A DNA stretch of 64,000 nt, taken from positions 992,474 through 1,056,473 of the forward strand of contig NZ_RAQJ01000001.1 of NCBI RefSeq assembly GCF_003610635.1, in the 5' to 3' direction. Positions 20,894 to 30,698 of this stretch are shown here, piece by piece. The DNA comes from Ichthyenterobacterium magnum (GTDB taxonomy: Bacteria; Bacteroidota; Bacteroidia; Flavobacteriales; Flavobacteriaceae). The number at the start of each line of letters is the position of its first letter. Within the stretch, counting starts at the first letter, position 1. Both the position numbers and the translations under genes were made by a program. The notes beneath the pieces were generated by a model. The model did no database searches and was not told where the DNA came from. It saw only the letters and a program-made list of their open reading frames with translations.

Positions 20894-20901
20894 TAGTTTT
20901 G
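20894..20901 (+). promoter_or_regulatory. -7 promoter box of the acyltransferase gene
   Basis: TAGTTTTG matches TAnnTTTG. Transcription would start about seven bases later, at or beside the ATG at 20908. It overlaps the alternative TTG start codon at 20899. Confidence 0.4.
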
Positions 20902-20907
20902 AAGCGC

Positions 20908-21648
20908 ATGATTGTATTTAAATATATCTTTTGGGTTTTGTATCGCATATGGTTCTATATTCTTGTAGCATTACCTATTCTTATTTTATTTCCGCTACTT
21001 GTCATTTCAATTTTAAAGGAGTCTTGGTATCCTTTCTTTTTTAAGCTTGCTCGTTTTTGGGCAAAATTTATTTTAGTTGGTATGGGTTTTAATACCAAGA
21101 TAAAACGAGAACAAATTCCAGAACCTAACAAAAGCTATATGTTTGTTGCTAACCACACATCTATGGCAGATATTATGCTTATGCTGGTTGCGGTTAAGAA
21201 TCCTTTTGTTTTTGTTGGAAAAAAAGAATTGGCAAAAATCCCTTTATTTGGGTTTTTCTATAAGCGTACAAGTATTTTGGTTGATAGAAGCAGCGCAAAG
21301 AGTAGGCAAGCAGTTTTCTTGCGCGCACAAAGGCGACTTAAGCAAGGCATGAGTATTTGTATTTTTCCAGAAGGCGGCGTTCCTGAAGAACAGATTGCTT
21401 TAGACAAGTTTAAAGATGGTGCTTTTAGAATGGCAATTAATCATCAAATACAGATTGTTCCAATTACATTTATAGATAATAAAAAGCGTTTTTCTTATAC
21501 ATTTTTTAGTGGTGGTCCTGGGAGAATGCGAGTGAAAATTCATAAGTTTATAAATACTGAAGGGTTGAAAGTTGAAGATACAAAGCAGCTTAATAAAGAG
21601 GTAAGAGACATCGTACTAAAAACTCTCACTCTCACAAAGACAAAGTAA
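20908..21648 (+). CDS. plsC: 1-acyl-sn-glycerol-3-phosphate acyltransferase
   Basis: A 246-residue membrane-bound acyltransferase that makes phosphatidic acid from lysophosphatidate. After an N-terminal hydrophobic region (about 1-30) come N-H-T-S-M-A-D (the N-H-x4-D catalytic motif, near 77-83), G-K-K-E-L-A-K-I-P, and F-P-E-G-G (near 152-156), with V-P-I-T-F further on. Length is standard. An in-frame TTG at 20899 would add three residues, but it coincides with a TAGTTTTG promoter box, so I prefer the ATG. A perfect 14-bp hairpin follows the gene. Confidence 0.9.
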   Translation: MIVFKYIFWVLYRIWFYILVALPILILFPLLVISILKESWYPFFFKLARFWAKFILVGMGFNTKIKREQIPEPNKSYMFVANHTSMADIMLMLVAVKNPFVFVGKKELAKIPLFGFFYKRTSILVDRSSAKSRQAVFLRAQRRLKQGMSICIFPEGGVPEEQIALDKFKDGAFRMAINHQIQIVPITFIDNKKRFSYTFFSGGPGRMRVKIHKFINTEGLKVEDTKQLNKEVRDIVLKTLTLTKTK

Positions 21649-21803: not shown

Positions 21804-22100
21804 ATGAAAAAATTTCTTGTTTTATTTGTTATGGCATTCTTTTTGTTTTCCTTTTCAAGTACTGGTGAAAATAATAACATTGAAAGTAAACAAAATATGC
21901 TATTTCAACTACAATCTTGTTGTACAGCTAGTGTGACTTACAATGGAAGAGTTGTTAAAACATTTACTAATTGTATTTCTGGAATTGGACCAGCAGCGGT
22001 ATCTCTCGCATGTTCAATTTCAACAAATGAAGCAGAAGACTATATTGCAAATGCACAAGCTGCTATTGAGGCTTTAAACAACGCCTTAAAGGAATTTTAA
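21804..22100 (+). CDS. Small secreted four-cysteine protein, function unknown
   Basis: A 98-residue protein with a Sec signal peptide (basic start, hydrophobic 4-17; probable cleavage near residue 20) and no lipobox. The mature part of about 75 residues has four cysteines (39, 40, 57, 70), enough for two disulfides, and an Ala-rich amphipathic C-terminal helix (about 75-98). I do not recognise a family. It starts the AT-rich module with a GLPGLI protein (10 bases downstream) and a large outer-membrane protein, downstream of palindrome copy 1. Context suggests a secreted product or periplasmic partner of that outer-membrane protein; that is inference. Confidence 0.65.
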   Translation: MKKFLVLFVMAFFLFSFSSTGENNNIESKQNMLFQLQSCCTASVTYNGRVVKTFTNCISGIGPAAVSLACSISTNEAEDYIANAQAAIEALNNALKEF

Positions 22101-22110
22101 AAATTGAAGT

Positions 22111-22848
22111 ATGAAGTTTAAAATATGCTTTTTTTTAATGTTTTCTATGCTGTGTTATGGTCAGAATAATAGTACATTAAATATTGAATATAGTTATTCA
22201 ACTAAATTAGAAGGTACATATTCTAGAATAACTATTAATTCTACTTTAATTGCAAATCAAATACATTCTATATATGAAATGAACTTTAATGAAAACAATA
22301 AAGAAACTCTTAGCCAAGAAAGTGGAGAGGAAGGAACTGTTTATAATATAAAGTCAAAAGTAAACCCTAAAATTTATAAAGATTTAAAAAGTAAAAACAT
22401 TTATAGTGTTGAATTAATAGGCTTAAAACCCTTTATTGTTAGAGACACTATGGCTGTATTTAAGTGGAACTTCCTTACTGAATATAAATCTATTTTGGGA
22501 TATAAATGTCAAAAAGCCAATGTGAATTATAGAGGGCGAGATTATGTCGCTTATTTTACTACGGAACTACCATTTAATGCTGGGCCATGGAAGTTTTCAG
22601 GCTTACCAGGAGTTATCTTAGAAGTTGCATCTTTGGATAATGTTTTTGAAATTAAAGCTAATAAAATTCAACTTAAAAATGAAGCTACAAATCTTCATAG
22701 ACCTAACTTAAAAAATCTATCGATAACTTGGAATGATTATATTAAAGAGTATAATAAGAAATATAATGAATTATTATATTATACGAGCCCAAATGGAGGA
22801 ACAAGTTCTTTACCAAAACGACAAATTGAAGTATTAGTTGAAGAATAA
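22111..22848 (+). CDS. GLPGLI family secreted protein
   Basis: A 245-residue exported protein with a signal peptide (about 1-17, ending C-Y-G-Q) and the hallmark motif F-S-G-L-P-G-V-I-L-E near residues 164-173, preceded by G-P-W-K. It belongs to the Bacteroidota GLPGLI family, whose members are commonly encoded beside TonB-receptor-like outer-membrane proteins. Biochemical role is unknown. It overlaps the following gene by 11 bases, implying coupled translation. The AT content of this gene and its neighbours is markedly higher than that of the atp or hem genes. Confidence 0.88.
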   Translation: MKFKICFFLMFSMLCYGQNNSTLNIEYSYSTKLEGTYSRITINSTLIANQIHSIYEMNFNENNKETLSQESGEEGTVYNIKSKVNPKIYKDLKSKNIYSVELIGLKPFIVRDTMAVFKWNFLTEYKSILGYKCQKANVNYRGRDYVAYFTTELPFNAGPWKFSGLPGVILEVASLDNVFEIKANKIQLKNEATNLHRPNLKNLSITWNDYIKEYNKKYNELLYYTSPNGGTSSLPKRQIEVLVEE

Positions 22849-25489
22849 AACAGAAGCATATTTATTTAATAGTAGAACCATAATATCAATTATGGTTCTA
22901 TTTTTTTTATTAAAAACAACGTGTTTTTCACAACATACTATAAAAGGAGTAGTTACAGAGAAAGTAACAAATCAAATAATTCCTTTTGTAAATATTTTAG
23001 TAAAAACGCAAGAAGGGAATCTTATTGATTTTACTTCAACTAACGAAAGTGGATACTATTCTATTGAAATGCCAAAAAAAGTAGACTCTTTACGTATTGA
23101 AACTTCAATTATTAGCCATTTACCAAAAAGTGAATTACTTATTTTAGAGAAAAGTAAAAATAAGTATACCTTAAATTTTAGTTTACAACAAAGACTCACC
23201 GAATTAGATGAAGTTTATATTGAAAGTGAAAAAAAACCCATAATAGTAAAGAAAGATACTACAATCTATAATCTTATAGAATTTAAAGATGGAAGTGAAC
23301 GTGTTGTTGAAGATTTACTAAAAAAACTTCCAGGAATTATAGTAGAAGACAGTGGTTTAATAAAATTTAAAGGTAAACAAGTTACTAGAGTACTACTAGA
23401 TGGAGATAACTTATTTAACGAAAACTATTCAGTAGGCACAAAAAATATAGATTCTGAAATAGTAGAAAGCGTACAAGCAATTGAAGATTACAATACAAAC
23501 CCATTGCTAAAAGGTATTAAAAGCTCTCAAGATGTTGCGGTTAATTTAATGCTAAAAAAAGGGGTTACGGATATTTCTGGAAACGCAGAGATTGGTTTAG
23601 GCATAGAAAACAAAAAGTATTTAAAAACCAATGTTATTTCTGTATCAAAAAAACTAAAAGGGTTTTCTACATTAAGTTACAATAATATTGGAGAAAATTA
23701 TAGCCCTTATAATTTTTTATCAAATACTTTTGACTTATCAAAAGCTAATGAAATTAACCAAAGAACTTCCAATTTGGTCAGTAATAATGCATTTAACTCA
23801 GCCTTGCCTGATAATAGAACCAGAGTTAACAATAATGTTTTTGGAAGCCTTAATTCGCTATTTAAATTTAATAAAAAAACCTCTTTTAAGCTTAATTACA
23901 ATATTTTCAAGGATAAATTAATTAGAAATGAATCTATAAGTACTATTTATAATTTTGATAATGAACAGATAAATATTTCAAACCAAAAGAGTATTAGTAA
24001 GAGACCATTAATACATACTTTTGAGTATGATTTAATATATGAAATTAATAAAAAATCACGTTTGACTTCTATAGGAAAATTAGATTCTCAAAATATTAAA
24101 AACACATCAAGTGGATTTAATAATAATAATAGTTTTGATAATATTATAGAAAGTGAAGATTTGTTTTTAAAAAATGATTTAGAGTATACATATCGTATTA
24201 ATAATAGTAATGTTTTTCAAATCTCGACAAATATTTCGACAAATAAAATCCCTCAAAATGTCAATGTATTAAATGAAATAAATAATTTAAAACAAAACAT
24301 TAATTTTAAAAAGAACAAGTTTGAAATACAATCTTCTTTGTTGTCTAAAACCCCAAAGGGTGAATATTCAATTTCTTTAGGATATGATTTTATAGAAAAT
24401 TTCGTTAATTCAAGTTTACAAGGATCTAATATTAATAACCAGTTATTATCAAACAATATTTACTATAAACTATCTGTGCCTTATGCGGATTTTAGATATC
24501 AACTTAGAATTAATAAATGGCAATTTATAGCCAACTTAAGCAATAGATTATTTAATGTAATGCTAGATGATGTTAATTTAGACACAAATTTAAATATATC
24601 TACTTTTGTTACTTACCCATCAATATCTATAAACTATTTTTTTAATAGTAAAGCTAACTTTTATACAGATTATAGATTATCTAACCAAGTACCACAACCC
24701 AATACTGTTTTTTCTGGTTTAATTTTAACAAACAATAGAGCTTATTTAAATAACGATTTTAAATTTAAGCTGTTTAATAATCATTCATCTACTTTAGGTT
24801 ATAGAATAAATGATTTTTACAATCTATTTCAATTTAATATTTATGCGTCTTATAATTTTAGTAAGTATGGTTTAATTAATAAATTTAATGTAAATGAGAA
24901 TACTGATTTTTACACATCGATAGTTGATATTACAAATAATAAAAATTTAAATTTCGGATTGAATTTTGAAAAGTATTTACACTTTTTAAAATCTACAATT
25001 AACATAAACAGTTCTTATTCTATTAGTAAATATCAAAATATAATTAATACTTCTGGATTAAGAAAAAATGAAAGTAAATCTCTGTTAGGAGAGTTTCATA
25101 TTAGAACAGGACTAAAAGGCTCATTTAACCTTGAGAATAAAGCACTTTTTATCAATAATACTTTTAGTACAACTAATGCTACATCAAATGTATTTGCAAC
25201 TTTTCAAAATGATTTTAAAATAAAGTATAATAAAAAAGGGTTTAATTTTATTATTAATAGCCAATATTTTAATCCAAATTTAAACTCTAATATTTCAGGC
25301 GATTTCTTTTTAGATGCCTTGGTTAGATATAAAACAAAAAAAGGTAAAATAGAATACCAAATTAAAGCTAACAATTTACTTAATAACCAAATTTATCAAA
25401 ATATAAATACTTCAGATTTTTCAAGGTCAGTTTTTCAACATAATTTACAAGAAAGGTTTATGCTTTTATCAGTTCAATTCAAATTTTAG
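22838..25489 (+). CDS. TonB-dependent-receptor-like outer-membrane protein
   Basis: An 883-residue outer-membrane beta-barrel protein: signal region ending T-C-F-S-Q (about residue 32), a carboxypeptidase-regulatory-like beta-sandwich (about 33-120), a plug-like domain (about 140-245, with V-E-D-L-L-K-K-L-P-G-I and V-L-L-D-G-D-N-L-F) and a long Asn-rich barrel ending in V-Q-F-K-F. This is the type normally paired with GLPGLI proteins. The start is a TTG overlapping the upstream gene; the later ATG (22892) would remove the basic part of the signal peptide. Asn/Ile/Lys-rich composition and very high AT suggest either low constraint or acquisition. Likely cargo is unknown. Confidence 0.82.
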   Translation: MKNKTEAYLFNSRTIISIMVLFFLLKTTCFSQHTIKGVVTEKVTNQIIPFVNILVKTQEGNLIDFTSTNESGYYSIEMPKKVDSLRIETSIISHLPKSELLILEKSKNKYTLNFSLQQRLTELDEVYIESEKKPIIVKKDTTIYNLIEFKDGSERVVEDLLKKLPGIIVEDSGLIKFKGKQVTRVLLDGDNLFNENYSVGTKNIDSEIVESVQAIEDYNTNPLLKGIKSSQDVAVNLMLKKGVTDISGNAEIGLGIENKKYLKTNVISVSKKLKGFSTLSYNNIGENYSPYNFLSNTFDLSKANEINQRTSNLVSNNAFNSALPDNRTRVNNNVFGSLNSLFKFNKKTSFKLNYNIFKDKLIRNESISTIYNFDNEQINISNQKSISKRPLIHTFEYDLIYEINKKSRLTSIGKLDSQNIKNTSSGFNNNNSFDNIIESEDLFLKNDLEYTYRINNSNVFQISTNISTNKIPQNVNVLNEINNLKQNINFKKNKFEIQSSLLSKTPKGEYSISLGYDFIENFVNSSLQGSNINNQLLSNNIYYKLSVPYADFRYQLRINKWQFIANLSNRLFNVMLDDVNLDTNLNISTFVTYPSISINYFFNSKANFYTDYRLSNQVPQPNTVFSGLILTNNRAYLNNDFKFKLFNNHSSTLGYRINDFYNLFQFNIYASYNFSKYGLINKFNVNENTDFYTSIVDITNNKNLNFGLNFEKYLHFLKSTININSSYSISKYQNIINTSGLRKNESKSLLGEFHIRTGLKGSFNLENKALFINNTFSTTNATSNVFATFQNDFKIKYNKKGFNFIINSQYFNPNLNSNISGDFFLDALVRYKTKKGKIEYQIKANNLLNNQIYQNINTSDFSRSVFQHNLQERFMLLSVQFKF

Positions 25490-25494
25490 CAATT

Positions 25495-25528
25495 AAAAAG
25501 CTGCTCTTGCAGAGAGCAGCTTTTTTTT
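25495..25528 (+). terminator. Terminator after the outer-membrane protein gene
   Basis: GCTGCTC (25500-25506) pairs with GAGCAGC (25514-25520), extended by A5/T5, then a run of eight T. Strong stem; could also serve the minus-strand gene ending at 25570. Confidence 0.88.
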
Positions 25529-25569
25529 GTATTGCGTATTTGCAATAACTATCTAACCAACTAAAAAAC

Positions 25570-27108
25570 CTAAAATTTAAAACTTAAACCTGTATACACG
25601 CCAATAAAATATGGTTGAAAATCACCAGAACTGTTATTGAATGTGTTTATTTGATATTTGAACATAGGCTCAAGATTTACTTTTAATTTTTCTGACACAT
25701 TATAATTAACACCAATACCAAAATTTGCACTATAACTCGTACTATTAATATTTGTAGCTTCACCTATAAGTGTACTGTTTCCATTTACATTTGAGTAGAC
25801 TTCGTTTTTGTCTAAAAATAATGTGCTGAAACCTCCAATAACATTCAAATCAATTTTTTTATTGATAATATTATATTCTACCTCAACAGGAATTTCAATA
25901 AAACCAATACGTTGGTCTAAAGAAGATTTTACATTTTCTGCTAATACCTGAGGTAGTGCTATAAAGCTTATAGACTCACTACTTAATATATTTGTACTTT
26001 GAGTATTACCATTAAATTTTATATTTCTTAATTGTGTATTTCCTTCAAAAGAAGAGTTTCCAACAAATGAGGCGTTTGTACTGTTGTAAACTATAACGTC
26101 ATTAGTGTTGTACCCTAACGCTACTTTATTAATTCCTGCTCGTACTTTTAGTTTTTTGTTTATGGCATAGCTACCACCAACACCATAACTCATATTTATC
26201 TCACCATTTTTAGAATTGTCTACAAATTGCTGATCGATTGATGAGCCTTTTCCTAAAGAGTTAAAATACACGGGAGCAACGTTTGGAGATACGCTCCATC
26301 TTTTTAATTTTTCTTCATTTTCATCTTCTTCTTTCTCATTGGCATTAGCAATTGCATCCTCAATAGAAGTCTCTTTTTTGAGGTCTTCTAATTTTTCTTC
26401 AAGTATTAAATTTTCTTCTTCCTCAAGGTTTTCTTCGTTTTTTGCAATAGCAGTAATTGTTGATTTCTCATGGATTTGCTCTTTGTTAATAAGAGCATCA
26501 ATCTCTGATTTACTTTTTAGAGTAATGTTAGGTTTAGGTAGATTTGAAGTGTTTTTCACTACAGAAATTTTTGTTTTATCTGTAGTAGTTTCATTTTTAT
26601 AATGCTGTGATTTAGCATATAAATTTTTAATTATAGCATCAGTGTTTTGATTGTTTGTTTTAGTATTAGAGCTTTTGTTAGCAATTTCATTATTATGCTT
26701 TTCTGAAGTATTAGAAGTAAGTTTTAAACTGTTAGCTTCTGTTTTATTACTATTTATGGCATTATTCTCTTTTGTAACTATTTTTAGGTTTAGTTCTTCT
26801 GAAGGGTTTTTAACATTGTCTGTATTAGAAATTTGAGTATCTAAATTTGAGTTTTCAGTATTTACAATTGGGTTTGTTTGTATAGTATTGTTAGATGAAT
26901 CGTTAAAAAAAGTACTACCAACTGTAAAAAGCAAAGCTAAAATTGCGGCAACTCCAGCTAATTTCCACCATATAGGAATAACTCTTCGTTTACGTTTATC
27001 TTTATGTAGCTCTTTTTCTATATTGTCCCAAACAGCATCGTTTGGGGAAGCTTCAAAGTTTTTTAGCTTCTCCTGAAAAAGCCTATCTATATGTTTTTTG
27101 TCACTCAT
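25570..27108 (-). CDS. Anti-sigma-like protein with C-terminal outer-membrane beta-barrel
   Basis: A 512-residue protein of unusual design. Residues 1-42 are a charged cytosolic segment starting with a conserved-looking R-L-F-Q-E-K-L-K-N-F-E-x-x-P-x-D-A-V-W-D-N-I helix, as in anti-sigma proteins of ECF pairs. One membrane helix follows (about 43-68), then a ~200-residue low-complexity linker rich in Asn, Lys, Glu and Thr (69-270), then a beta-rich domain (271-512) resembling outer-membrane porin-family barrels and ending in L-S-F-K-F with C-terminal Phe. The layout fits the dual membrane-spanning anti-sigma factors described in Bacteroides (Dma type). Its ATG overlaps the sigma stop (TAATG), so the pair is coupled. 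Which sigma step it inhibits is inferred from position. Confidence 0.75.
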   Translation of the reverse strand: MSDKKHIDRLFQEKLKNFEASPNDAVWDNIEKELHKDKRKRRVIPIWWKLAGVAAILALLFTVGSTFFNDSSNNTIQTNPIVNTENSNLDTQISNTDNVKNPSEELNLKIVTKENNAINSNKTEANSLKLTSNTSEKHNNEIANKSSNTKTNNQNTDAIIKNLYAKSQHYKNETTTDKTKISVVKNTSNLPKPNITLKSKSEIDALINKEQIHEKSTITAIAKNEENLEEEENLILEEKLEDLKKETSIEDAIANANEKEEDENEEKLKRWSVSPNVAPVYFNSLGKGSSIDQQFVDNSKNGEINMSYGVGGSYAINKKLKVRAGINKVALGYNTNDVIVYNSTNASFVGNSSFEGNTQLRNIKFNGNTQSTNILSSESISFIALPQVLAENVKSSLDQRIGFIEIPVEVEYNIINKKIDLNVIGGFSTLFLDKNEVYSNVNGNSTLIGEATNINSTSYSANFGIGVNYNVSEKLKVNLEPMFKYQINTFNNSSGDFQPYFIGVYTGLSFKF

Positions 27109-27650
27109 TATAATGTTTGCGAATTTAAATTCGCTTTGTATTTTTCTATTTTTTCTTTTAAAATTAATCGAGCTCTCGCTAGATTAGATTTTGAGGTTCC
27201 TGTTGAAATGTTTAACATTTCAGCAACCTCTTTGTGAGAATAACCATCTAAAGCATATAAATTAAATACTAATCGATAACGATCTGGTAATTCTTGAATT
27301 ATCTCTAACAAAAAATCGATACTTATTTCATCTTCATTTATTTCTACAGTTATGTCTTCTATTTGATCTTCATTAATAATATCAAATACACCAACACTTC
27401 TATAACATTGTAAAGCAGTGTTAATGGTAATTCGCTTCATCCAACCTTCTAAAGACCCTTTATTTTTAAACTGTGTTATTTTTTTAAAAATAGTTATAAA
27501 TGCGTCTTGCAAATTATCTTCTGCTTCGGCATAATTTCTCGAATACTTTAAGCAAAGCGAAAATAGTTTACTCGCATGGAGCTTGTATATTTGGCTTTGA
27601 GCTTTAGCATCATTTTTTTTACATTGTTCTATGAGTTGCTCTAAACTCAC
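27108..27650 (-). CDS. ECF-type RNA polymerase sigma factor
   Basis: A 180-residue extracytoplasmic-function sigma-70 factor. Region 2 (about 20-90) contains the A-E-D-N-L-Q-D-A-F-I-T-I-F helix and G-S-L-E-G-W-M-K-R-I-T-I-N; region 4 (about 120-172) is a helix-turn-helix with L-P-D-R-Y-R-L-V-F-N-L-Y and G-Y-S-H-K-E-V-A-E-M-L-N-I-S. The start is GTG at 27650, giving the usual M-S-L-E-Q-L-I-E-Q-C. It lies 22 bases after a lipoprotein gene and overlaps the anti-sigma-like gene by one base, which points to direct control by that partner. Confidence 0.92.
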   Translation of the reverse strand: MSLEQLIEQCKKNDAKAQSQIYKLHASKLFSLCLKYSRNYAEAEDNLQDAFITIFKKITQFKNKGSLEGWMKRITINTALQCYRSVGVFDIINEDQIEDITVEINEDEISIDFLLEIIQELPDRYRLVFNLYALDGYSHKEVAEMLNISTGTSKSNLARARLILKEKIEKYKANLNSQTL

Positions 27651-27672
27651 ATTGGTTAGGTATTTAGTTAAT

Positions 27673-28086
27673 TTATTCTGTAACTGGCACTTCTACTATG
27701 TAATATAAATCATTGCCATTTTCGTCTTCGCCTTGCCAAAATTTAAACACATATGGACTCATATTATTAACCTGAAAATTAAAAGAAACTTCTACTTCTT
27801 CATTTGTAAATGTTTCACAGACTTCATCAGTGTAAACAGTATTAACTATAGCAACAGTACGCTGGTTTTCTTCACTTAAGTAATAAAAGTCATTAAAAAC
27901 ATGACATCCTGATGGTCTTAAGTATGAAAGTGAAATCTCATAAGTTTCTCCATATGCAAATTCTTCAGGAATAGTAACTGTTTCTACTGGTAAAATTTCA
28001 TAATAAAAATTAGGCCCAGTCACTTCTGTGCTACAAGAGGATAAAAGTGCTATGATAAATAGACACAGAAAACTTATGTTTTTCAT
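27673..28086 (-). CDS. Predicted lipoprotein upstream of the sigma factor
   Basis: A 137-residue predicted lipoprotein from the ATG at 28086: M-K-N-I-S-F-L-C-L-F-I-I-A-L-L-S-S-C, Cys18 as the lipid anchor. The mature part is beta-rich with two further cysteines (in S-G-C-H-V and E-V-C-E-T) that could pair. A longer in-frame start (28131) adds 15 residues before the signal and is unlikely. No family is recognised. It is 22 bases ahead of the sigma gene and is probably cotranscribed, making it a candidate part of that signalling locus. Confidence 0.68.
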   Translation of the reverse strand: MKNISFLCLFIIALLSSCSTEVTGPNFYYEILPVETVTIPEEFAYGETYEISLSYLRPSGCHVFNDFYYLSEENQRTVAIVNTVYTDEVCETFTNEEVEVSFNFQVNNMSPYVFKFWQGEDENGNDLYYIVEVPVTE

Positions 28087-28152
28087 AGAATAAATAGATT
28101 TAGGATATACCTTTACAGAATGTAGATGCACTATTATTACAAAGGTTGCGTC

Positions 28153-28197
28153 TTAAAACCAAAAAATCTCATTTTAAATGAGATTTTTTGGTTTTAA
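28153..28197 (-). terminator. recA terminator, 22-bp perfect inverted repeat
   Basis: Two 22-base arms (28153-28174 and 28176-28197) are exact reverse complements with a single base between them. The right arm includes the recA stop codon (28194-28196). A/T-runs on both sides make it usable on either strand. Confidence 0.8.
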
Positions 28198-29198
28198 GCG
28201 TTAGTCTTTATTATTTCTTTTACTTTACCTTCAAGCTCATCCATGAGTTCAGGGTTATCTTTAATCAAGCTTTTTACGGCATCTCTACCTTGCCCAAGTT
28301 TGGTTTCGTCATAACTAAACCAGGACCCACTTTTTTTAATGATTTCATGTTCTACAGCAATATCTAGTATTTCACCAACTTTTGATACGCCTTCACCATA
28401 CATAATATCAAATTCTGCCATCTTAAAAGGAGGCGCAACTTTGTTTTTAACAACTTTAACTCTAGTTTTATTACCAGCTACACTACCATCACTTTGTTTA
28501 ATTTGAGTAGACCGTCTAATATCTAATCTTACAGAGGCATAGAATTTAAGAGCATTTCCTCCAGTTGTAGTTTCTGGGTTTCCAAACATGACTCCAATCT
28601 TTTCACGTAATTGATTAATAAAAATAACTGTACAATTAGTTTTACTAATAGACCCCGTTAGCTTTCTTAGAGCTTGCGACATTAAACGTGCATGCAAACC
28701 CATTTTCGAATCTCCCATTTCACCTTCTATTTCACTTTTAGGTGTTAATGCAGCAACAGAATCAATAACAACGATATCTATAGCACCAGAACGAATTAGA
28801 TTATCTGCAATCTCTAAAGCTTGCTCACCATTATCTGGCTGAGAAATAATTAAATTATCTATATCTACTCCAAGTTTTTCTGCGTAATAACGATCAAAAG
28901 CATGCTCAGCATCAATAAACGCAGCAATACCTCCAACTTTTTGCGCTTCAGCAATAGCATGAAGTGTTAACGTTGTTTTTCCAGAAGATTCAGGGCCATA
29001 AATTTCTATTACTCTACCACGTGGATATCCACCTACGCCTAATGCGATATCTAAACCAAGTGAACCAGAAGAAATGGCGTCGACATCTACAACAGCTTGG
29101 TCACTCATTTTCATTACTGTTCCTTTTCCGTAAGCCTTATCTAATTTATCTAAAGTTAACTTTAATGCTTTTAGTTTTGCGTCTTTTTCACTACTCAT
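28194..29198 (-). CDS. recA: Recombinase RecA
   Basis: A 334-residue RecA, the strand-exchange ATPase of recombination and SOS induction. Walker A is G-P-E-S-S-G-K-T at 68-75; the L1/L2 loops and the [22 protein letters not shown] segment are intact. The start at 29198 (M-S-S-E-K) matches the family; a further in-frame ATG at 29273 lies upstream of the promoter. The C-terminal tail is short and mildly acidic. The stop codon lies inside the terminator hairpin. No SOS box could be recognised. Confidence 0.97.
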
Positions 29199-29230
29199 TT
29201 GTGTGTGCTTTTTCTTAATTGATATGACAG

Positions 29231-29260
29231 CTAAAATACGACATCTTTTAATTTTTTCAA
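29231..29260 (-). promoter_or_regulatory. Predicted recA promoter
   Basis: On the minus strand TTG (29260-29258), exactly 19 bases, then TATTTTAG (29238-29231), one mismatch from TAnnTTTG. The expected leader is about 25 bases. Confidence 0.5.
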
Positions 29261-29321
29261 CTTTATGACGCAACCTTTTTGTTCTTTTTGCATCTACTAA
29301 TTGAGATTGGAAAATCTTGCT

Positions 29322-29393
29322 ATGAAAGAAATCGTTTTAGGACGATATATTCCATCTGAATTTTTAAAAAATACGACAGATGAAATTTTTTAA
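29322..29393 (+). CDS. Possible 23-residue ORF in the recA-trhO gap
   Basis: ATG at 29322 opens a 23-codon frame (starts M-K-E-I-V-L-G-R-Y, ends T-T-D-E-I-F) whose 3' end overlaps a second small ORF. No family or promoter box is recognised. It could be chance or a remnant; listed because it lies in the only 400-base region here with no clear gene. Confidence 0.2.
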
Positions 29394-29472
29394 GAAAATT
29401 ATTTTTAACAACGCATTAGGTGTTTCAGCTGCTGTAAGTGTAAATGGCAACTGTAAAGCCGATGGTGGCTAA
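29380..29472 (+). CDS. Possible 30-residue peptide ORF
   Basis: ATG at 29380 opens a 30-codon frame: basic start (M-K-F-F-K-K), a hydrophobic middle (A-L-G-V-S-A-A-V-S-V) and N-G-N-C-K-A-D-G-G at the end with one Cys and a terminal Gly-Gly. The stop codon lies in the left arm of a long hairpin, and a terminator follows, so a short transcript ending near 29557 is plausible. Function unknown; could be a remnant. Confidence 0.3.
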   Translation: MKFFKKIIFNNALGVSAAVSVNGNCKADGG

Positions 29473-29523
29473 CTCGTATTATATTTTTAAGAACATTTTA
29501 AAAATATTGATAACGAGTTAGCC
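29467..29523 (+). other. Long hairpin between recA and trhO
   Basis: GGCTAACTCGT (29467-29477) and ACGAGTTAGCC (29513-29523) are exact reverse complements; inside them ATATTTTTAA pairs with TTAAAAATAT. About 21 pairs in total with a small internal bulge and a short loop, directly followed by a terminator. It may be the end of a small RNA. Confidence 0.6.
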
Positions 29524-29524
29524 T

Positions 29525-29557
29525 AAAAAGCACTTTGGAAAGACCAAAGTGCTTTTT
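29525..29557. terminator. Terminator upstream of trhO
   Basis: GCACTTTGG (29530-29538), loop AAAGA, CCAAAGTGC (29544-29552), extended by A5/T5 and followed by T. Works in either direction; on plus it would end a short transcript from the recA-trhO gap. Confidence 0.8.
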
Positions 29558-29588
29558 TATTTTAAAAAAATAAACCACTTAAAAGTAT

Positions 29589-29596
29589 TATCTTTG
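29589..29596 (+). promoter_or_regulatory. -7 promoter box of trhO
   Basis: TATCTTTG followed by CAC fits TAnnTTTG; the leader would be about 30 bases. No clear -33 TTG at normal spacing. Confidence 0.5.
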
Positions 29597-29633
29597 CACA
29601 AAATAAATCTTTAACCTTAAAAATTAGTATAGC

Positions 29634-30698
29634 ATGCAACTGTACAACAACTTAAGTAATAAAGAAAGAGCAGAACTTATTGAAAAAGCTGGAAAAGAAC
29701 GCTTAACAATCTCTTTCTACAAGTATGCCAAAATTGGTAACACTCAAATTTTTAGGAATCATATGTTTTTAGCCTGGGATCAACAAGATGTCTTAGGAAG
29801 AATATATGTAGCTAAAGAAGGCATTAATGCACAGCTTTCTGTTCCTGCAGAGAATTTTGAAACTTTTAAAAAACACCTAGACACGATTTCGTTTTTAGAA
29901 AATGTGAGATTAAATATTGCTGTAGAGCATGATAATTTTGCGTTTTTAAAACTTAAAGTGAAAGTGCGTAATAAAATTGTTGCTGATGGACTTGAAGATG
30001 AAACTTTTGATGTAACAAATAAAGGAATACATGTTGGGGCAGAACAATTTAATGAACTAATTGAAGACAAAAATACAGTTCTGGTTGATATGCGTAACCA
30101 TTACGAAAGTGAAATAGGACATTTTAAAAATGCTGTAACTCCAGATGTTGATACGTTTAGAGAATCTTTAGATTTGATTGAAGAAGATTTAAGAGCGCAC
30201 AAAGAAGACAAAAAATTAGTCATGTATTGTACTGGAGGCATCCGTTGCGAAAAAGCAAGTGCATACTACAAGCATAAGGGATTTAAAAACGTATACCAAC
30301 TGGAAGGCGGAATTATAAACTACGTGCGTCAGATTAATGAAAAAGGTCTTGAGAATAAATTTTTAGGCAAAAACTTTGTGTTTGATGAAAGGCGCTCTGA
30401 GCGTATTTCTGAAGATGTAATTGCCAACTGCCATCAATGCGGTAAACCTGCAGATTTGCATACTAACTGTGCAAATGAAGCTTGTCATCTATTATTTATT
30501 CAATGTAACGAATGTAAAGAGCAAATGGAAAACTGTTGCTCAGCAAACTGTATGGAGATTAATAAATTGCCATATGAGGAACAAAAAGCACTTCGTAAAG
30601 GACAAGGTAATAGTAATGATATATTTAAAAAAGGAAGAGCGAATCACTTACCTTTTAAAAAGGATTTAAGAAATATATTTGAATCGCAATCTAAATAA
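29634..30698 (+). CDS. trhO: tRNA uridine-34 hydroxylase TrhO (rhodanese family)
   Basis: A 354-residue protein of the YceA/TrhO family, which uses oxygen to hydroxylate U34 of certain tRNAs. An N-terminal domain (about 1-110) is followed by a rhodanese domain (about 125-235) with the active-loop Cys199 in Y-C-T-G-G-I-R-C-E-K-A. The C-terminal part (about 260-310) carries a cysteine-rich region (C-H-Q-C-G-K, N-C-A-N-E-A-C, C-N-E-C, N-C-C) likely to bind zinc. Length and motif order are as expected. It stands alone between two terminators. Confidence 0.92.
   Translation: MQLYNNLSNKERAELIEKAGKERLTISFYKYAKIGNTQIFRNHMFLAWDQQDVLGRIYVAKEGINAQLSVPAENFETFKKHLDTISFLENVRLNIAVEHDNFAFLKLKVKVRNKIVADGLEDETFDVTNKGIHVGAEQFNELIEDKNTVLVDMRNHYESEIGHFKNAVTPDVDTFRESLDLIEEDLRAHKEDKKLVMYCTGGIRCEKASAYYKHKGFKNVYQLEGGIINYVRQINEKGLENKFLGKNFVFDERRSERISEDVIANCHQCGKPADLHTNCANEACHLLFIQCNECKEQMENCCSANCMEINKLPYEEQKALRKGQGNSNDIFKKGRANHLPFKKDLRNIFESQSK

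Follow-up and report, generated by a model that had tools for sequence, protein, structure and literature searches.

Systems of the Dma/Das type have been reported solely in the Bacteroidota, according to PMC13088901, and that work describes the Dma2/Das2 operon of Bacteroides thetaiotaomicron as BT_1557-1559, where das2 rises once dma2 is removed; it also cites Dma1 as controlling NigD1, a NigD-like effector. The locus reported here lies in a window of 64,000 nucleotides, the whole stretch of DNA that was analysed, from Ichthyenterobacterium magnum (Flavobacteriaceae). As set out for Dma2/Das2 in PMC13088901, the features that the two have in common are one membrane helix, a long disordered tether and a C-terminal barrel, together with an adjacent ECF sigma factor gene and a three-gene operon, the further gene of which is BT_1557 in Bacteroides; the N-terminal anti-sigma domain of Dma2 has a putative counterpart here. 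In the Dma class the adjacent cognate sigma factor belongs to ECF21. The comparison is one of predicted architecture, and by this plan the locus appears Dma-like. We consider it likely that it forms a Dma/Das-type envelope circuit, in which the sigma factor drives its own operon and a set of lipoproteins that are probably surface-exposed.

Architecture and conservation of the operon

The lipoprotein, sigma factor and Dma-like genes occupy positions 25570-28086 on the reverse strand of the window (Table 1), and on rechecking, the original prediction proved correct as to the coordinates of the sigma factor and 512-residue genes, their TAATG overlap and the position of the lipoprotein gene 22 bases upstream. 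The sigma factor matches Sigma70_r2 (PF04542, 2.8e-12) and r4_2 (PF08281, 1.9e-16), both over cut-off. Its own genome has sixteen ECF-type matches and, to judge by the length and start of the ORFs that come next, none of the other fifteen precedes a protein of such size and layout. In the best 80 of at least 545 relatives, which are Flavobacteriaceae as far as their titles tell, an ECF gene adjoins the Dma-like gene on its 5' side at every locus (80/80), and the lipoprotein gene lies upstream in 79 of the 80, the exception being L076; at L061 it stands approximately 390 bp from the sigma factor gene. A second set of 29 loci of relatives has the sigma factor before the Dma-like gene in 29 and the lipoprotein gene upstream in 24. 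The lipoprotein-sigma-Dma operon is conserved, as these computations show, and the adjacent ECF genes, in combination with the structure prediction below, support the proposed pairing of a sigma factor gene with a Dma-type architecture. The sigma factor start codon was placed at 78 of 81 loci (the window and the same best 80 of at least 545 relatives, L047-L126), leaving three unplaced, and is TTG in 44 and GTG in 34; such a non-ATG start may keep the sigma factor below its anti-sigma factor.

Table 1. Features of the locus, with positions in the window.
Feature	Position	Strand	Remarks
Dma-like ORF	25570..27108	(-)	512 aa; start overlaps the sigma factor stop by 1 base
Residues 271-512, OmpA-like outer-membrane barrel	25573..26298	(-)	8 strands by our count, terminal Phe
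Residues 73-270, disordered Asn/Lys/Thr/Glu/Ser tether	26299..26892	(-)	conserved short helix 249-262 (I249, A252) just before barrel
Residues 46-72, inner-membrane helix	26893..26973	(-)	KRKRR just before (N-in)
Residues 1-45, putative cytosolic anti-sigma-type segment	26974..27108	(-)	helices 4-14, 24-35; conserved F11, W27
ECF sigma factor gene	27108..27650	(-)	180 aa, GTG start
Operon lipoprotein gene	27673..28086	(-)	137 aa, signal MKNISFLCLFIIALLSSC; 22 bp before sigma factor gene
ECF-type operon promoter CGCAACC-N16-ATCT	28124..28150	(-)	conserved in 90/91 upstream stretches
Second promoter copy, divergent from recA	29269..29295	(+)	68/78 loci
30-residue ORF MKFF...CKADGG, downstream of second promoter	29380..29472	(+)	20/78 loci, third-position bias

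In the window, the Dma-like gene is separated from a plsC-like gene (20899-21648) by a forward-strand segment (21804-25489) holding a small Cys-containing ORF, a GLPGLI protein and a CarboxypepD_reg/plug-type protein. This segment looks like an insertion, since a plsC-like ORF comes directly after the Dma-like gene in five of six relatives inspected. Rfam models gave sub-threshold matches alone over 25400-30000.

The 512-residue protein was modelled with AF2 from 52 family sequences (mean pLDDT 66.9, pTM 0.51). The two N-terminal helices are predicted with modest confidence (pLDDT 65-74 in ten-residue blocks), the tether falls below 50 at residues 73-198 and 209-247, and most blocks of the strands at 271-510 reach 84-98, with the loop at 341-360 at 56-63. 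A single membrane helix is indicated by hydropathy, which peaks at 2.14 at residue 50. Of solved folds, small barrels of the outer membrane resemble the C-terminal part most (OmpA 9fzc, Z 15.3, rmsd 3.0, 164 aligned), and Foldseek matches it to the OmpA type at E 2.8e-8. The model and the fold match thus uphold the outer-membrane-type barrel ending in Phe that had been foreseen from the sequence, with strands 271-510 forming an OmpA-like barrel in the prediction of residues 1-512, and on their strength a soluble C-terminal domain was rejected. The overall plan also stood, but its borders moved: the cytosolic part is approximately 1-45, the helix 46-72 and the tether 73-270, in place of 1-42, 43-68 and 69-270. 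Pfam barrel models stay under cut-off for the window copy (PF13505, 25.3 of 28.7 bits), and PF13568 is matched by 16 of 24 A1 members at E<=0.001. Both barrel ends are predicted to be periplasmic, and the segments 286-299, 343-394, 442-456 and 488-497 would face outward.

Across 104 sequences, a set that includes the window and counts some genomes twice, residues 1-45 and the barrel are on average 67% and 56% identical to the window, the helix 57% and the tether 18%, and Cys is absent from all 104. The architecture is not a product of chance, because the N-terminal part and the barrel are conserved across this set around so variable a linker. Tether length ranges from 105 to 299 residues (median 210); its sequence drifts but its length has a floor, which fits a spacer obliged to cross the periplasm. 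As computation shows it, the predicted chain is built to sit in both membranes.

Matches to the protein at E<=0.001 occur in 36 of 60 genomes, its own included (31 of 37 in the family and 5 of 23 in the order). Profile matches at 1e-5 occur in 79 of 395 genomes of the phylum; those of full length are confined to the family, and outside it most cover the N-terminal part, a few the C-terminal part or both ends (G241, a 477-aa ORF). Second, shorter or more divergent Dma-like matches are found in G005, G007, G018, G026 and G029.

The tether bears on what such a chain could sense. Being long, disordered and unconserved, it would make a poor relay and a good protease substrate, and with the short conserved helix immediately before the barrel it argues for an assembly sensor of the sigma-E kind, where failed barrel insertion would lead to site-1/site-2 proteolysis and the response would rebalance surface lipoproteins; we regard this as possible, if short of probable. 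Alternatively, the tether might gauge the gap between the membranes, so that blebbing would pull it taut and release the sigma factor, tying lipoprotein supply to vesicle formation. Drawn out in full, at 0.36 nm per residue, the shortest tether (105 residues) would reach approximately 38 nm, more than the usual width of the periplasm. Bacteroides dma1 and dma2 mutants are described as over-vesiculating (PMC13088901), and loading of SusG into vesicles is described as needing an acidic signal (PMC6222051); both would suit a gap gauge, a reading that we hold to be unlikely.

The operon lipoprotein is a predicted beta-sandwich (AF2 pLDDT 90) with Cys 61 and Cys 90 invariant in a 46-row alignment. 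Its family consensus after the lipobox, CSxDDD, resembles published surface-export signals, and the window protein, with CSTEV, has one acidic residue only at those positions. The Pfam lipid-attachment model matches 11 of 46 members, and hits to 21 further Pfam families, up to E 10 and in one or two members apiece, look like chance. Fold matches include 5bmt (Z 6.8) and the NigD-like 3qwn (Z 6.0, rmsd 3.6, 92 aligned), below the trusted level (Z <8), and the resemblance to NigD may be merely that of a common beta-sandwich. Evidence for membership of the NigD family went no further than this weak fold match: NigD_C (PF17415) matched none of the 46 members, and PDB chains gave no sequence match to the family. 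The suggestion that the lipoprotein may be a surface partner is supported by its standing as a conserved operon member; the family CSxDDD has the look of a surface-export signal, but the CSTEV of the window copy is a weak one.

The original prediction had an outer-membrane event passed directly to the sigma factor through one chain. In such a model the barrel would be a surface receptor whose outward loops bind a ligand, perhaps the operon lipoprotein, and the signal would travel down the intact chain. Two of the putative outward segments, 286-299 and 488-497, are rich in invariant or nearly invariant columns, and the lipoprotein gene accompanies the operon at 79 of the best 80 loci from at least 545 relatives, both of which favour a receptor, but a tether of 105-299 residues with scant conservation would hardly carry a conformational change, and we find this model rather doubtful.

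A conserved promoter and its predicted lipoprotein targets

Upstream of the lipoprotein gene lies a near-invariant promoter, ACGCAACC...CATCTA. The pair GCAACC and CATCT is present in 90 of 91 upstream stretches, a set from which 13 loci had been dropped beforehand (lipobox or start unplaced by script) and in which some genomes appear twice; the spacer is 15 in 89 and 14 in one, and the single stretch without the pair (L034) is incomplete there. Among the 89, CGCAACC is invariant and preceded by A in 96%, with 94-100% conservation at the -10 positions C-A-T-C-T. In layout it is an ECF-type promoter. The sigma-E promoter, for comparison, reads GGAACTT/GTCTAA.

Allowing up to one mismatch, the window holds two sites, both exact (Table 1). 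The weight of this result rests on exactness and conservation, because 8 of 100 window shuffles likewise reach two sites at one mismatch. Relaxing the pattern brought in chiefly background in the own genome (22 sites versus 17 controls at up to one mismatch; 31 versus 23 with variable spacing), and therefore the exact pattern alone, CGCAACC-N15-YATCT, was used, with the reversed pattern as control. By this measure the own genome has five sites and no reversed control. All 31 family genomes in which Dma is matched have at least one site (134 sites versus 6 controls), and the six family genomes without a Dma match have none (3 controls). Sites away from the operon number 86, in 26 of the 31 Dma-bearing family genomes; the other five have no such site. 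The 23 order genomes hold 2 sites versus 4 controls: one is in G038 (Dma match 8e-40) and one in G049 (weak N-terminal match only), and no site was found in G039 (Dma match 6.3e-23, 76% complete) or in G037 and G055 (weak partial matches).

Elsewhere in the own genome, another ECF gene (L003, C1:940655) has a GCAACC-type -35 with TTGTCT as its -10 in front, and a like GCAACC-type site lies 3.3 kb away at C1:937339; these may belong to a sister regulon whose -10 differs. Overlap of sigma factor specificities is possible because of this L003 promoter, which, along with the Dma-bearing G039 that has no site, might be taken to mean that the motif belongs to another regulator and that the barrel protein is an envelope tether only. 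Against this, 90 of 91 stretches upstream of the operon carry the motif and six of six family genomes without a Dma match lack it, and we consider such an arrangement very improbable.

Targets were sought at 80 of the 86 sites away from the operon, the six left out being from G002, G025, G026 and G027. All 57 such sites in 13 genomes were inspected, and 40 are followed by an ORF of at least 80 aa starting 8-60 bp past the -10; the other 17 are without such an ORF at that distance, several lying within genes. By a scripted rule that accepts any of several starts at 8-60 bp and hence favours lipoproteins, 32 of the 40 encode lipoproteins compared to 17 of 508 background ORFs, the latter being ORFs of at least 150 aa from the best 80 loci described above, on both strands and with the first three ATGs tried, which may include non-genes and differ from a whole proteome. 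By eye, three of the remaining eight look like lipoproteins (L210, L215, L239) and four like other exported proteins (L208, L213, L214, L241), and L219 is within a gene. A hold-out of eight further, mostly more distant genomes, picked once the first result was known and put to an unaltered rule, contributed 20 sites (one of them, L265 in G031, seen earlier): 10 are followed by such an ORF, and all 10 ORFs are lipoproteins; of the 10 sites without one, six are inside long ORFs, as chance hits would be. Three sites outside the count of 57 (L263-L265, from G015 and G031) all lead to lipoproteins by eye. One conserved ECF-type promoter, as computation shows, stands before the operon and, in many family genomes, before lipoprotein genes.

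Among the 32 regulon lipoproteins, Asp is found at mature position +4 in 14 and +5 in 16, with a mean of 1.9 acidic residues in +2 to +6, figures that stand without a control lipoprotein set. The Asp pattern resembles the LES consensus for surface export published as SDDFE and SDDDD (PMC5080379), and the lipoproteins that the sigma factor would drive are probably surface-exposed. In the own genome, the predicted targets are the operon, the transcript beside recA, two lipoproteins (L127 and L247, the latter a short ORF) and a SusC-like receptor (L266). SusC-like receptor genes (L266, L212 and L245; own genome, G005 and G009) share a leader of approximately 142-153 nt between the promoter and the gene start, approximately 145 nt being typical of the own genome, G005 and G009. 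Other exceptions are a DUF3575-type barrel protein (L214) and DUF11/T9SS-type proteins; another DUF3575-type barrel protein, L137 of the own genome, has CGTCT as its -10, hence an inexact site.

The second site of the window is beside recA, the letter signature of RecA being present in 77 of the best 80 loci from at least 545 relatives. It points away from recA, which was rejected as its target. When the pattern is slightly relaxed, 72 loci have the site, and 54 of them have a TTGCTATGA-like element just downstream. The ORF MKFF...CKADGG has 30 residues in the loci that hold it (28 in one), and over its last nine codons in 19 sequences, pairwise differences at codon positions 1, 2 and 3 number 181, 66 and 508. 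Several of the loci that lack this ORF carry remnant-like letters of it, L066, L071 and L083 among them. The unit at 29269-29472 (+) is a predicted small transcript, which may act as a small protein, as an RNA or in both ways.

Proposed circuit

On the Dma/Das-type reading that we prefer, residues 1-45 would keep the sigma factor bound to the inner membrane. The trigger could be a barrel that is uninserted or destabilised, a surface ligand, or an outer membrane drawn away, sensed by the barrel or by its lipoprotein partner, whereupon the anti-sigma factor would be pulled, cut or disengaged and the sigma factor freed. Cleavage or tension is likelier than a conformational relay because the tether is slack, long and unconserved. 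Free sigma factor would then switch on its own operon and the small transcript beside recA, along with genes for lipoproteins, probably surface-exposed, and for a few further exported proteins, and new Dma from the overlapping gene would close the feedback loop; we infer the negative control, the barrel insertion and the feedback. More tentatively, the locus may be part of a family-wide, sigma-E-like stress circuit for surface lipoproteins, where Dma would use its barrel, together with the operon lipoprotein, to gauge their traffic or outer-membrane blebbing, the sigma factor would set vesicle-bound supply, and the recA-side peptide or RNA would be a second arm.

Comparison with known systems

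In Escherichia coli, sigma-E/RseA and Rcs place an envelope regulon under the control of the outer-membrane state; the circuit proposed here would share that control, but neither of these systems is known to have an anti-sigma factor bearing its own outer-membrane barrel. Nearer in plan, the further gene of the Dma2/Das2 operon encodes a DUF4943 protein (PMC13088901), whereas nothing beyond the lipid-attachment model is recognized in the lipoprotein here. Its likeness to the NigD1 partner of Dma1 goes as far as the weak fold similarity to 3qwn, without a NigD_C sequence match. The SM6 regulon of Flavobacterium psychrophilum, as described in PMC9723704, is likewise an ECF regulon of the Flavobacteriaceae; it lists a YceA rhodanese-type gene, and the gene after our second site looks by eye like the same family, but it differs in having a CGT box at the -10 and T9SS genes. 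The pair THC0290_1774-1773 of that system (PMC9723704) could be related to the sigma/Dma pair.

In the parts of the literature covered, with the supplements and the founding PNAS 2024 paper outside its scope, no promoter motif or lipoprotein regulon was found for a Dma-type system, and the word 'motif' is absent from the main text of PMC13088901. The Dma/Das plan is already known; the lipoprotein regulon of the Flavobacteriaceae and the near-invariant promoter before it appear to be new, and neither formed part of the original prediction. They make the signals and direct targets of Dma, a recent class, directly testable, and they suggest why loss of Dma alters vesicles in Bacteroides, a genus whose vesicles carry surface lipoproteins marked by an acidic signal. 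The circuit that we propose would be a clear case of a single polypeptide joining the cytosol and the outer membrane in signalling.
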